Position numbers and translations under genes: made by a program. Shown piece after piece: positions 39,319 to 52,223 of a stretch of DNA of 64,000 nucleotides (its first letter is position 1; the number at the start of each line of letters is the position of its first letter). The notes under the pieces are model-generated. The model did not search any database. It saw only the letters and a program-made list of their open reading frames with translations, and was not told the origin of the DNA. This stretch comes from Xanthomonas indica (lineage in GTDB: Bacteria; Pseudomonadota; Gammaproteobacteria; Xanthomonadales; Xanthomonadaceae), in assembly GCF_040529045.1 (NCBI RefSeq), contig NZ_CP131914.1:1286501-1350500 (forward strand), given 5' to 3'.

Positions 39319-40554
39319 TCAGACACTGCGCGTGGCCACCGCCGGCGGCACCGCGGCGGCGCGGCGGGCGGGCGCCAGGATCGCCAGTTGGCCGAGCAGC
39401 AAGAGTGTTGCAGCGACGGTCGGCAGGTAGCCCAGCGGCAGGCGTGGCAGATCGTAGCGCTGCAACAGCGCTTGATTGAGCAGCAACGCCAGCACCATGC
39501 CCGCGGCGCTGCCGGCGCTCACGATCAGCAGGTTTTCGGTCTGGAAATGGCGCAGGATGTCGCGACGGGTCGCGCCGATGGCGCGGCGGATGCCGATCTG
39601 GCGCGTGCGTTGCTGCACCCAGAAACTGGCCAGTCCGCCGATGCCCAGGGCGGTCACGAACAACAGGCCGGTGGTCGCCGCGAGCAGCAACCCGATCATG
39701 GTGGCATCGCGCTGGAAATAGCGCTGCCGCAGCTGGGAATAGCTGCGGCGCCCTTCGGCCGGAATCAGCCGCAGCGGTCCTGCCTGTGCCAGCGCGCCGG
39801 CCGCTGCGGCCAGGATCCGTTCGCGGTCCTGCGGCGCGCTGCGCAACAGGTATTGCACCTGGTTGCCCGCGGGCAGCTGCGGCGACAGCGCGGCCAGATG
39901 GTCGACCGCTGCGCCGCGCAGCGTCGTGCGCAGCAGATCGTCGACGACACCGACGACGATGGCGCCGTGGACTCCGCCATACAGCGTTTTGCCGACCGCA
40001 GGTTGACCTGGCCACAGTTGCCGCGCCAGCGCGCGGGTGACGATCACGGCGCTCGGTGTGGCGGTGGAATATTCGTCGGCACGGAAGTCGCGGCCAGCGA
40101 CCAGGTGCGCGCCCATGGCCTGCACGAAACCGGGCGAGCCGGAGTAATACGTGGCCTGGATGCACCCTGTATTGTCCATCGACTGCTGCGCCATCGCGCG
40201 GTCCAGCGTCTGCCGGTCGGGGCAACCGCCATAGTCGTTGGCGCCGCCGGACAGCGGCAGGCTGAAGCCGATCGCGGCGGCCGCGGTGACACCGGGAATG
40301 CTGCGCAACGCCCGCAGATCGGATTGTTGCTGGGCCGGCGCGTTGCCATCGCTCTGGACGCCGCGCACCGAGATCAGCGAAAGTTCTTCCTCGGGCAAGC
40401 CGCTGGAGACCCGCAGACGTTCGATGCGCCCACCGATCAGGAACACGGCGTTGGCGACGAAGGCGCAGGTCAGCGCGACCTGCAGCGCCAGCAGCGCGGC
40501 GGTCAGGCGGTGATGCTGCAGGCTGGAGAGGATGGGACGGATTGGCAGATTCAT
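39319..40554 (-). CDS. FtsX/MacB-type ABC permease B5
   Basis: 411 residues. One N-terminal helix (LTAALLALQVALTCAFVANA), a periplasmic MacB-like domain (about 50-275), then three C-terminal helices starting near residue 285 with GLASFWVQQRTRQIGIRRAI. It ends RAAAVPPAVATRSV. The periplasmic part has two cysteines (YGGCPDRQT and DNTGCIQ). No ATPase domain is attached. It overlaps A5 by four bases and is the last permease of the operon. Its last 57 bases are identical with those of B4, which suggests recent copying or gene conversion. Confidence 0.88.
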   Translation of the reverse strand: MNLPIRPILSSLQHHRLTAALLALQVALTCAFVANAVFLIGGRIERLRVSSGLPEEELSLISVRGVQSDGNAPAQQQSDLRALRSIPGVTAAAAIGFSLPLSGGANDYGGCPDRQTLDRAMAQQSMDNTGCIQATYYSGSPGFVQAMGAHLVAGRDFRADEYSTATPSAVIVTRALARQLWPGQPAVGKTLYGGVHGAIVVGVVDDLLRTTLRGAAVDHLAALSPQLPAGNQVQYLLRSAPQDRERILAAAAGALAQAGPLRLIPAEGRRSYSQLRQRYFQRDATMIGLLLAATTGLLFVTALGIGGLASFWVQQRTRQIGIRRAIGATRRDILRHFQTENLLIVSAGSAAGMVLALLLNQALLQRYDLPRLPLGYLPTVAATLLLLGQLAILAPARRAAAVPPAVATRSV

Positions 40555-41882
40555 GTCAGGTCCTTGATCTGCAGGGCGGGGTCGATCCGGCTGGCCCGCC
40601 AGGCGGGCAGCAGGCCCGCCAGCAGTGCGGCGATCACCGCCAGTGCCACGGTGGCGAGCAGCATTTGCAGGTCCATCCGCGCCAACCTGGCGTAGTCGTC
40701 CGGGCGCTGCCGCACGCTCCACAGACCCAGTTCGGCGATCGCAATGCCCACTGCGCCACCGAGCAGTCCGATCAGCGCGGCCTCGCTGCCGAACTGCAGG
40801 AACACGTGGCCGCGGCGGGCACCGAGCGCGCGCCGCACGCCGATCTCGCCGCCGCGGCGCAGGAATTTCGCCAGCAGCAAGGCGATCACGTTGACCAGGC
40901 AGATCCACAGGAAACCCAGCGCCAGCAGCGTCTGCAGGCGCACATCGTCGGGCACCATCCGCAGGTGGCGCAGCCAGTCCATCAACGCATACAGGCGCGC
41001 CCGCTCCGGCGGACGCTGGAAGCGGCCGCTGGCATGCTGTGTCGCGGCGTAGTCGTAGAGCAGGCGCTGGTAGGCGGCGACCTGCTGCGGCGTGTCCAGG
41101 CGCACCCAGAACTGCAGCCAGCTGGTCGACGGATCCTTGCGTCGCGCCGCGTCGTCGCCGTTGAAGCTGTTCCAACTGCTGATGTTGCTGTTGACGTCCA
41201 GTGCCAGTTCCATCGCGGTCGACAGGGGCAGGAAGAAATCGTCGTGCTGGCCGAAACTGCCCTTGCTGCCAGGGTCGGCGTAGAACAGCGGTTGCGGATC
41301 CCATTGGCCGGTCACGCCGATCACCTGGAAGCCGATGCGCTTTTCCCCCAGCGCCACCCGCTGGCCGATCGGATCGTGCGCGCCGAACAGGGTGTTGGCC
41401 AGGGTGCGGCTCAGCACGATGACGCGGGCGTGGCTTTGGTCGTCCGCCGCGCTCCAGCCGTGGCCGCGCTGCAAGGGGATGCCGAACAGGGCGAAGAACC
41501 CGGCGCTGGTGTAGCAGCCGCTCAGGTCGAGCGGCGCTTGCGCCGCGCGCGGCGGCCACAGCAAGACCTGCCCGCCGGTCATCGCCGCCTGCGGCGTGGC
41601 GGGTGCGGCGCGTAGCAGCGCCATGGCGTCGGGCCATGTGAGGTTGTCGGCCGGATCGCCCCACTCGTGGTTTTCTGGATAGCTGGACGGCAACGGATCC
41701 AGATGCGGGGTGTAGAGCGCATCGCTCTTGCCCGGCAGCGGATCGCGCGACATCACGTGCAGCACCGTCAGCATGGTCATGCTCGCGCCGATGCCCAGGC
41801 CGATCGCCAGCACCATCAACGCCGTGGCGACCGGCGTGCGCAGCAGGCTGCGCCAGGCCAGCGGCAGGTAATAGTTCAGCAT
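40551..41882 (-). CDS. FtsX/MacB-type ABC permease A5
   Basis: 443 residues, longest of the A type. N-terminal helix VATALMVLAIGLGIGASMTM, then the A-type motif SRDPLPGKSDALY, a periplasmic domain to about residue 315 and three helices starting FLWICLVNVIALLLAKFL, with RRGGEIGVRRALGARRGHVF at the cytoplasmic loop. It lacks the periplasmic cysteine pair present in A1 to A4; serine and threonine replace them near SSWNSFNG and PSTSWLQFW. It probably dimerises with B5, with which it overlaps. Confidence 0.88.
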   Translation of the reverse strand: MLNYYLPLAWRSLLRTPVATALMVLAIGLGIGASMTMLTVLHVMSRDPLPGKSDALYTPHLDPLPSSYPENHEWGDPADNLTWPDAMALLRAAPATPQAAMTGGQVLLWPPRAAQAPLDLSGCYTSAGFFALFGIPLQRGHGWSAADDQSHARVIVLSRTLANTLFGAHDPIGQRVALGEKRIGFQVIGVTGQWDPQPLFYADPGSKGSFGQHDDFFLPLSTAMELALDVNSNISSWNSFNGDDAARRKDPSTSWLQFWVRLDTPQQVAAYQRLLYDYAATQHASGRFQRPPERARLYALMDWLRHLRMVPDDVRLQTLLALGFLWICLVNVIALLLAKFLRRGGEIGVRRALGARRGHVFLQFGSEAALIGLLGGAVGIAIAELGLWSVRQRPDDYARLARMDLQMLLATVALAVIAALLAGLLPAWRASRIDPALQIKDLT

Positions 41883-41918
41883 CCCGCGTCTCCTCGCTCG
41901 ATGGGTGGCCGCGCTCGC

Positions 41919-50885: not shown

Positions 50886-50900
50886 CGTCGCGTCCCCCGC

Positions 50901-52223
50901 TTACAGACTCTTGAGTTGCATGGCTGGCGCGATACCGCTGGCGCGCAGGGCGGGGAACAGGCCGGCCGCGAGGCTGCAGGCGATCGCCAGTGCGAAGGTG
51001 CCGGCGAAGGTCGTCAGGTCCAGATGCGCCAGATCGGCGTAGGCGGTCGGCTGCTGGCGCACGCTCCACAGGCCGAGCAGGGTCAGCAGCCAGCCGCCGA
51101 TGCCGCCGATCAGGCCGATCAGGCTGGCCTCGGTCAGGCATTGCGCGAAGATCGCGCGGCGCGAAGCCCCCAACGCGCGGCGCACGCCGATCTCGCCGCC
51201 GCGGCGCAGGAACTTGGCCAGCAGCAGGCCGACGCTGTTGAACAGGCACAGGCCCAGGAACGCCAGCGCCAGCCAACTCTGCAGGCGCACGTCGCCCGGC
51301 ACCACGCGGTTGTGGTCCAGCCATTGCGGCAGGGACAGCAGGCGCGCGGTGTCGGCGCGGCCGATGCGCCCGGCGGCCTGCTGTTGCGCGGCGTAGTCGG
51401 CCAGCAGGCGGCGGTAGTCGGCGACCTTCGCCGGCGTGTCCAACTGCACCCACAACTGCAGCCACACGCACGGGGCGCTGCGCAGGTCCATGGTGGCCTC
51501 GGGCTTGCTGAAGCAGGTCCACGGCTGGATGTGGCCGTCGTTGACCTCCAGGCTGCTGGACAGCGGCATGAACACGTCCTGCGTGCGTCCATAGAAGCTG
51601 GCGGTATCGCCGTGGGCGAAGCTGCCGCCGGCCAACGTGTAGAACAGCGGCGACGGCCGCCACGGTGCCAGCACGCCGACGATGCGCACTGCGGTGCCGC
51701 GCACCAGCAGGCTGCGGCCGACGCTGTTGCGGCCCTGGAACAGCTTGGCGTTGAGGTCGGACGAGATCACCGCCACCCGCGCCCGGTCCTGATCGTCGCG
51801 CGCGCGCCAGCCGCTGCCGTAGGCGAACGGCACCTGGAACATCGGGAAGAAATCGGCCTGGGTCATCAGCAACTGGGTCATGAAGGGCGGGGCGGCGCTG
51901 TCCGCCGCGTGCACCTTGATCTCGCTCTCGGCGACCATGGCCTGGCGATCGGCGCGCCCGCGCGTCCACAGGTCAAAGGCCGAGATGTAGTCGAGCTTGT
52001 CGTACGGCTTCTGGTTGGCCCCCTTGCTGGGCCGTGGATCCAGTTGCGCGAAGAAGATCTGCTGGCTGCGCCCGGGCAAGGGATCGCCGGACAGCAGCCG
52101 CATCACCGTCAGCGTGGTCATCGCCGCGCCGATGCCCACCGCGATGGACAGCACCATCAGCGCGGTAAGCACCGGGCTGCGGCGCAGGCTGCGCCACGCT
52201 TGCTGGAAGTAGTAGCCGAGCAT
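50901..52223 (-). CDS. FtsX/MacB-type ABC permease A1
   Basis: 440 residues, first permease of the operon. First helix VLTALMVLSIAVGIGAAMTT; motif SGDPLPGRSQQIF; two periplasmic cysteines 15 apart (PWTCFSKPE, SAPCVWLQLW); C-terminal helices with RRGGEIGVRRALGASRRAIF; ends APAMQLKSL. It starts 28 bases after the ATPase stop. MacB itself fuses ATPase and permease; here the permease is separate, as in LolCDE- and Bce-like systems. Confidence 0.88.
   Translation of the reverse strand: MLGYYFQQAWRSLRRSPVLTALMVLSIAVGIGAAMTTLTVMRLLSGDPLPGRSQQIFFAQLDPRPSKGANQKPYDKLDYISAFDLWTRGRADRQAMVAESEIKVHAADSAAPPFMTQLLMTQADFFPMFQVPFAYGSGWRARDDQDRARVAVISSDLNAKLFQGRNSVGRSLLVRGTAVRIVGVLAPWRPSPLFYTLAGGSFAHGDTASFYGRTQDVFMPLSSSLEVNDGHIQPWTCFSKPEATMDLRSAPCVWLQLWVQLDTPAKVADYRRLLADYAAQQQAAGRIGRADTARLLSLPQWLDHNRVVPGDVRLQSWLALAFLGLCLFNSVGLLLAKFLRRGGEIGVRRALGASRRAIFAQCLTEASLIGLIGGIGGWLLTLLGLWSVRQQPTAYADLAHLDLTTFAGTFALAIACSLAAGLFPALRASGIAPAMQLKSL

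Follow-up and report, generated by a model that had tools for sequence, protein, structure and literature searches.

The window, a 64,000-nt stretch of the Xanthomonas indica chromosome (contig NZ_CP131914.1), contains an operon in which ten consecutive permease genes follow one gene for a MacA/HlyD-type membrane fusion protein (adaptor) and one for an ATP-binding cassette (ABC) ATPase. The permeases are of two types, A and B, which alternate strictly five times on the minus strand from position 52223 down to 39319, with spacings of −4 to 49 bases. The order of transcription is adaptor, ATPase, A1, B1, A2, B2, A3, B3, A4, B4, A5, B5, and then regulator and kinase. This arrangement had been claimed in a previous reading of the DNA without database searches (the sequence-only reading), and it is borne out by gene order and gene lengths, including the single ATPase and the single fusion protein at the head of the operon. 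We consider it fairly probable that the operon encodes a self-regulated type VII ABC efflux module, in which one motor and one adaptor serve several substrate-specific heterodimers, probably for peptide-like compounds. Gene order, pairing, co-evolution, the single ATPase, domain-wise conservation, and the conservation of promoter and palindrome are directly supported by the data described below.

Two permease types and their conserved coupling loops

The pairwise identities of the ten permeases are 46–60% within type A, 41–56% within type B, and 25–31% between the types. Because the identities within the types exceed those between them, A and B are genuine types, in agreement with the sequence-only reading. 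The B motif that it had described, FWVQQRT(K/R)QIGIRRA, is present in all five B proteins, and the A motif DP(L/I)P in all five A proteins; the proposed A ending, LKS or similar, does not hold for A5, which ends in KDLT.

The FtsX family (PF02687) scored above its cut-off in all ten permeases, and both FtsX and a MacB-like periplasmic domain exceeded the Pfam cut-offs in all six scanned proteins (A1, B1, A2, A3, B3, and A5). Each unit has four helices; the periplasmic domain separates helix 1 from helix 2, and a coupling helix lies in the loop that joins helices 2 and 3, i.e. the layout of type VII ABC proteins. This layout is based on the hydropathy of A3 and B3, the secondary structure of an A1–B1 model, and structural matches to YbbP, MacB, LolC, and HrtB; by sequence, MacB is the closest solved relative. 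The A1–B1 structural model, in which the stop codon was read as glutamine to join the chains, is compatible with a heterodimer.

For comparison with fused permeases, the proteins were aligned to the ADOP model (TIGR03434, 803 positions). The A proteins align to positions 5–401 and the B proteins to 410–802, so that in all ten cases A represents the N-terminal and B the C-terminal half, in the same order as the genes. The single halves score 138–190 bits, i.e. below the cut-off of 622.3 bits, A1–B1 read through the stop codon scores 324 bits, and a fused paralogue in the same genome scores 652.7 bits. Because A matches the N-terminal and B the C-terminal half of a fused family, each A–B pair is, judged by sequence, a split ADOP-like unit of the type VII (MacB/LolCDE/YbbP) ABC kind. 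Like ADOP permeases, the units occur in multiple copies; they differ in consisting of two genes instead of one and in belonging to an operon headed by an ATPase and an adaptor, whereas the founding members of the ADOP family are described without an adjacent ATPase. In acidobacteria, 102 orphan permeases have been described in one genome, and a transport role has been suggested (available part of PMC10564751).

The operon shares with MacAB-TolC the MacA-type adaptor, the MacB_PCD periplasmic domain, and the FtsX domain, and differs by the separate-chain ATPase, the expected A/B heterodimer, several pairs per ATPase, and an own sigma-54 two-component system. Against MacB proper (PRK10535, cut-off 966 bits), the ATPase, a separate gene, reached 223 bits and the permeases at most 59 bits. 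The best score of the ATPase was that against DarD of the darobactin exporter (260.2 bits, cut-off 375 bits), and B3, the only permease listed with a DarB match, reached 17.5 of the required 700 bits. DarBCD also combines an adaptor, a separate ATPase, and a permease; in contrast to it, the neighbours of the window operon that have a Pfam match are housekeeping rather than biosynthetic genes. In LolCDE and YbbAP, unlike the window operon, each ATPase serves a single permease unit and a MacA-type adaptor is not known, and YbbP has two additional helices between its halves, according to the available part of its description.

Conservation is distributed very unevenly within the permeases. Among the five window paralogues, the periplasmic parts are 40% (A) and 32% (B) identical, while the values for the loop between helices 2 and 3 are 76% for A, with the sequence AKF(L/M)R-x-x-GEIGVRRALGA, and 86% for B, where the loop is the motif given above. 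In MacB-type permeases, this loop contains the coupling helix. Conserved loops combined with diverged periplasmic parts are the expected trace of a shared motor contact and diversified recognition. Of the modular system put forward in the sequence-only reading, the different periplasmic domains are thus observed, together with near-identical ATPase-contact loops; heterodimers, a shared ATPase, and interchange are what we infer. All ten genes have ratios of nonsynonymous to synonymous substitution rates (dN/dS) of 0.07–0.45 in comparisons with five or six relatives, with the highest values, up to 0.45, for B4. In a sister operon, with an ATPase 54% identical to that of the window, the B-type half of the fused permease has a different loop, and the loops of three pairs located elsewhere on chromosomes (L092, L094, and L095, see below) also deviate from the pattern.

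Related loci and pairs elsewhere on the chromosome

Annotation of 84 sequences, including the window, with hidden Markov models yielded 75 loci after removal of L063, L040, L076, and six shorter duplicate loci. We counted pairs in the 66 loci that had an ATPase above 300 bits and a regulator in view, leaving out nine without a regulator in view. An ATPase was needed for entry, and named loci extend only 10 kb past the adaptor, so that long arrays are under-counted. One pair was present in 37 loci, two in 10, three in six, four in four, five in seven, and six in two. None of the 66 loci, viewed from ATPase to regulator, has a second ATPase of this type, and none has a lone A gene. An own ATPase for each pair, the arrangement in relatives that would speak against sharing, was looked for and is absent from these 66 loci.

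The sequence-only reading had regarded five pairs behind one ATPase as out of the ordinary, but the plan is not peculiar to this locus. In G036, an adaptor and an ATPase are followed by four fused permeases, with no regulator seen in 20 kb; G098 has an adaptor, an ATPase, two fused permeases, a regulator, and a kinase; and G055, which belongs to a different family, combines six split pairs with one ATPase. Because these arrays show the same plan, several permease units per ATPase seem to be a recurrent habit of the subfamily. A literature search covering few subscription papers found no description of five complete permease pairs behind one ATPase for MacB-type pumps, which is weak evidence of novelty.

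Trees were calculated for 132 A and 132 B proteins from 158 pairs, leaving out near-identical one-pair loci and L025, L036, and L041. The A and B trees are correlated with r = 0.92; shuffling B within loci 1000 times gave a mean of 0.18 and a maximum of 0.36. Six clades of pairs, termed “slots” a and 1–5, are present in both trees. All 158 pairs have A and B in the same slot, a count that is partly circular, as 117 of them define the slots and are same-slot by definition. For the 41 pairs outside the slot-defining set, the best-matching slot of A is also that of B in every case. Because of the partial circularity, we added a slot-free test with 35 multi-pair loci: in 3392 of 4046 cases, A and B had their best matches in one and the same pair of the other locus, compared with about 1361 expected by chance. 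The congruence of the trees supports A–B pairing, which is less than a proof of contact. The slot order a-1-2-3-4-5 is retained in 30 of the 35 multi-pair loci, with various slots missing. For nearly all one-pair loci, slot 3 is the best match, at an identity of just 40–70% in some of them. Slots 1 and 4 also occur in Stenotrophomonas, and slots 2, 5, and a are patchy.

Strict alternation holds in the window but not throughout the relatives, since lone B genes, one or two per locus, occur in 12 of the 66 loci. A divergent lone B-type gene lies between the last pair and the regulator in L031, L067, L069–L072, L074, L077–L079, and L105 (34–39% identical to the slot 3 or slot 4 B where measured), and a second slot-3-like B immediately follows B3 in L068, L071, and L075. 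No remnants of lost pairs were found between the last permease and the regulator in 37 gaps of more than 200 bases. In L008, L012, L016, L058, and other one-pair loci, 0.7–1.1 kb without recognised permease remnants separate B from the regulator, compared with 105 bases in the window. Decay or sequencing errors are visible in L017 and L019, which have the regulator in two frames (in L017, ATPase and kinase are split, too), and in L036, which has a split A, a B fragment, and no regulator found before the kinase.

Ten further pairs lie outside the main locus, in nine of the 18 Xanthomonas genomes that have the locus. They were found by extra B matches away from it, and a 17-kb stretch was examined for each (L086–L095). 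Eight of the ten (L088–L095) lack a close, intact ATPase nearby. In L086 and L087, the pair has its own ATPase, which is 77–78% identical to the main ATPase. L088 is the corresponding site in another genome: A and B are intact, and the ATPase retains only residues 1–50 and 173–224, residues 51–172 having been lost. The dN/dS values of the L088 pair against L086 and L087 are 0.04–0.05, and part of this divergence may predate the deletion. In L089–L095, a close ATPase is absent from the 17-kb stretches. Altogether, the 18 genomes contain 67 pairs in the locus and 10 elsewhere versus 20 ATPases at at least 77% identity. In two genomes, G002 and G010, with 47 candidates scored per genome, the main-locus ATPase is the only match at E ≤1e-60. 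The 19th Xanthomonas genome, G017, has no B match at E ≤1e-30 and no ATPase match at E ≤1e-60.

A few of these pairs have neighbours of the kind seen in antibiotic gene clusters. The L091 pair sits between a 1958-aa polyketide synthase (PKS) frame and a long nonribosomal peptide synthetase (NRPS) frame, and its 17-kb stretch contains no ATPase or adaptor of this family. L087 is accompanied by AMP-binding and condensation domains, a penicillin amidase, and an outer-membrane efflux protein, L086 (86–88% DNA identity to L087) by an ABC exporter, and L090 by a RamC/LanC-type synthetase upstream. In trees that include the pairs elsewhere, L090 clusters with slot 1 and L091 with three pairs from the G055 array. 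According to a review, phytotoxin secretion in Pseudomonas requires MacAB homologues, and SyrD-type exporters could act before them (available part of PMC5985334); the setting of L086 and L087 fits this account.

Promoter, palindrome and two-component system

The window contains a −24/−12 element for sigma-54 within the adaptor frame (Table 1), a one-mismatch match that, taken by itself, would be expected by chance in 64 kb. A counterpart is present in 75 of 81 upstream regions, among which six genomes are represented twice; the misses are L005, L033, L034, L066, L080, and L081. The palindrome upstream of it is exact in 65 of the 81 regions, and in 19 of 20 sequences of the displayed alignment. 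An exact copy is present in 18 of the 41 genomes searched, among them 16 of the 19 Xanthomonas; each of the 18 has just one, located at this operon, and one carrier, G037, is from another family of the order. A wider regulon was not found, as none of the 18 carrier genomes has a second exact site. The genome of the window has the single exact copy and one further one-mismatch site, which we take as chance. The palindrome is the probable, predicted binding site of the response regulator. As promoter and palindrome fall within the first 47 codons of the adaptor frame, translation of the adaptor probably does not begin at the first start codon, Met48 near position 54365 being a likely start.

A regulator homologue follows the array in 66 of the 75 loci, and eight of the other nine loci end before that point. 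In all 16 kinases aligned, the two N-terminal helices are separated by just a few residues. Because the sigma-54 promoter is conserved and the palindrome occurs once per carrier genome, they imply a dedicated NtrC-type switch. The simplest reading, drawn by analogy, is that the regulator is dedicated to the operon and that the kinase would read the transporter, as described for BceS. As in BceAB-BceRS, transporter genes stand beside a two-component system with a kinase that lacks an extracytoplasmic sensor domain. BceRS has an OmpR-type regulator, the window an NtrC-type regulator with sigma-54. BceB, in the accessible part of its description, has ten helices and one extracellular domain; here, by contrast, there are two proteins with four helices and a periplasmic domain each. 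The BceS kinase reads the state of its transporter (available part of PMC7828314).

Proposed mechanism, alternatives and genomic surroundings

We propose that A and B of each pair assemble into a heterodimer that corresponds to a fused ADOP/YbbP-like permease split in two. The pairs would all dock on dimers of the single ATPase via their near-identical coupling loops, and on the single MacA-type adaptor, which would lead to a TolC-type channel; the five pairs probably take turns using the ATPase. The own periplasmic domains would give each pair its own substrate range, most likely among peptide-like natural products or antimicrobials encountered in the periplasm. The sensor-less kinase probably reads the state of the transporter in a BceS-like manner, and the NtrC-type regulator would turn on the single operon from the sigma-54 promoter. 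Several recognition parts per motor are already known for importers: five binding proteins, DppA1–A5, serve one DppBCDF transporter, according to the available part of the report.

A more tentative extension, which we rate as a serious possibility that falls somewhat short of being probable, is that ATPase and adaptor form a cell-wide hub into which any A–B pair plugs, whether in the array or alone in a natural-product cluster. The pairs would then be interchangeable cassettes without a motor, and the many orphan ADOP permeases found in other phyla might likewise be powered in trans. The case provides a genetically simple host in which to test how FtsX/ADOP-type permeases that lack ATPase genes of their own are driven, and offers a way to predict the exporter needed by a natural-product cluster that lacks its own ATPase.

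Several observations weigh against the proposed sharing and its regulation. LolD, FtsE, or another ATPase could power the pairs that have none close by; in L089, a weakly matching ABC ATPase (about 30% identity) is encoded 4 kb from the pair, and in L090 a weak partial one lies upstream. For five of the ten pairs elsewhere (L089 and L092–L095), the scanned genes include no clear biosynthetic neighbours, and those scanned around the window array are housekeeping genes wherever matched. The congruence of the trees is partly due to joint duplication of neighbouring genes, which yields congruent trees even without a heterodimer, the joined A1–B1 model indicates compatibility, not specificity, and the lone B genes do not fit strict pairing. 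An exact palindrome is absent from 23 of the 41 genomes, i.e. G002 and G016 (two-pair 1-a loci), G017 (no locus), and 20 genomes of other genera. A regulator and a kinase of this type are both present in the stretch in three of the nine loci from other families of the order, and both absent from it in the remaining six; in one of these six, L096 (G037), the exact palindrome and a sigma-54 element precede adaptor, ATPase, A, and B. Our confidence in the shared efflux module is slightly lower because the regulator is missing in relatives from other families and because the slot count is partly circular.

Three other explanations were weighed. If only the slot 3 pair truly partnered the ATPase, the other pairs being spare, decaying, or dependent on other cellular ATPases, the preference of one-pair loci for slot 3, the patchiness of slots 2, 5, and a, and the high dN/dS of B4 would be accommodated; we nevertheless regard this as unlikely, as all ten genes are intact and under purifying selection, slots 1 and 4 also occur in Stenotrophomonas, and the coupling loops hardly differ among the five window slots. 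The lack of lone A genes in the 66 loci, the occurrence of fused A–B homologues, the pairwise co-evolution, and the heterodimer LolC/LolE (available part of its description) as a precedent make it quite improbable that A and B form separate homodimers, MacB- or FtsX-like, and thus ten permeases instead of five, a view that can point to the lone B genes and to MacB and FtsX, which are homodimers (available part of PMC5985334). A kinase without a sensor domain would also suit pairs that transport nothing and are FtsEX-like mechanical relays controlling periplasmic enzymes, or just sensors of the kinase. To this we likewise assign a low probability, given that a MacA/HlyD adaptor leads the operon, as in tripartite pumps, and that related pairs are located in NRPS and PKS clusters.

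Table 1. Features of the operon, in window positions, and of the internally deleted ATPase gene of L088, in positions of its own oriented stretch
Feature	Position	Strand	Length (aa)	Remarks
Palindrome GTGTCCGCGGACAC	54468..54481	.		51 bases upstream of the sigma-54 element; predicted regulator site
Sigma-54 −24/−12 promoter TGGCACGCATCGTGCT	54401..54416	-		About 90 bases inside the adaptor frame; one mismatch to consensus
MacA/HlyD-type membrane fusion protein (adaptor)	53097..54506	-		Pfam HlyD_3, HlyD_D23; NCBIfam RND_mfp
Single ABC ATPase, LolD/MacB/DarD-like	52252..52968	-		Pfam ABC_tran; best NCBIfam DarD, 260 bits, below cut-off 375
Permease A1	50901..52223	-	440	Slot 1
Permease B1	49671..50885	-	404	Slot 1
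Permease A2	48348..49658	-	436	Slot 2
Permease B2	47110..48351	-	413	Slot 2; overlaps A2 by 4 bases
Permease A3	45801..47096	-	431	Slot 3; best match of nearly all one-pair loci
Permease B3	44528..45754	-	408	Slot 3
Permease A4	43177..44478	-	433	Slot 4
Permease B4	41919..43139	-	406	Slot 4
Permease A5	40551..41882	-	443	Slot 5
Permease B5	39319..40554	-	411	Slot 5; overlaps A5 by 4 bases
NtrC-type sigma-54 response regulator	37879..39216	-		Pfam Response_reg, Sigma54_activat, HTH_8
Histidine kinase	36527..37882	-		Pfam HATPase_c; by hydropathy and alignment two N-terminal membrane helices, few residues between, no periplasmic sensor domain
Internally deleted ATPase gene of L088	6021-6329			Site of the NRPS-linked pair

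The closest named relative of the adaptor is from Xanthomonas sp. F10 (98%). Ten window frames, including the kinase, were scanned for the surroundings. The genes on either side of the array encode a glutamine amidotransferase/SIS protein, presumably GlmS, and a nucleotidyltransferase with hexapeptide repeats, which we take to be GlmU. Beyond them lie ATP synthase genes and a heavy-metal ATPase; four of the ten frames gave no match and are perhaps not genes. The same genome contains a second operon of the same plan (L106, G000:C1:1892000-1902000), with an adaptor, an ATPase, a fused ADOP-type permease above the cut-off, an NtrC-type regulator, and a kinase.

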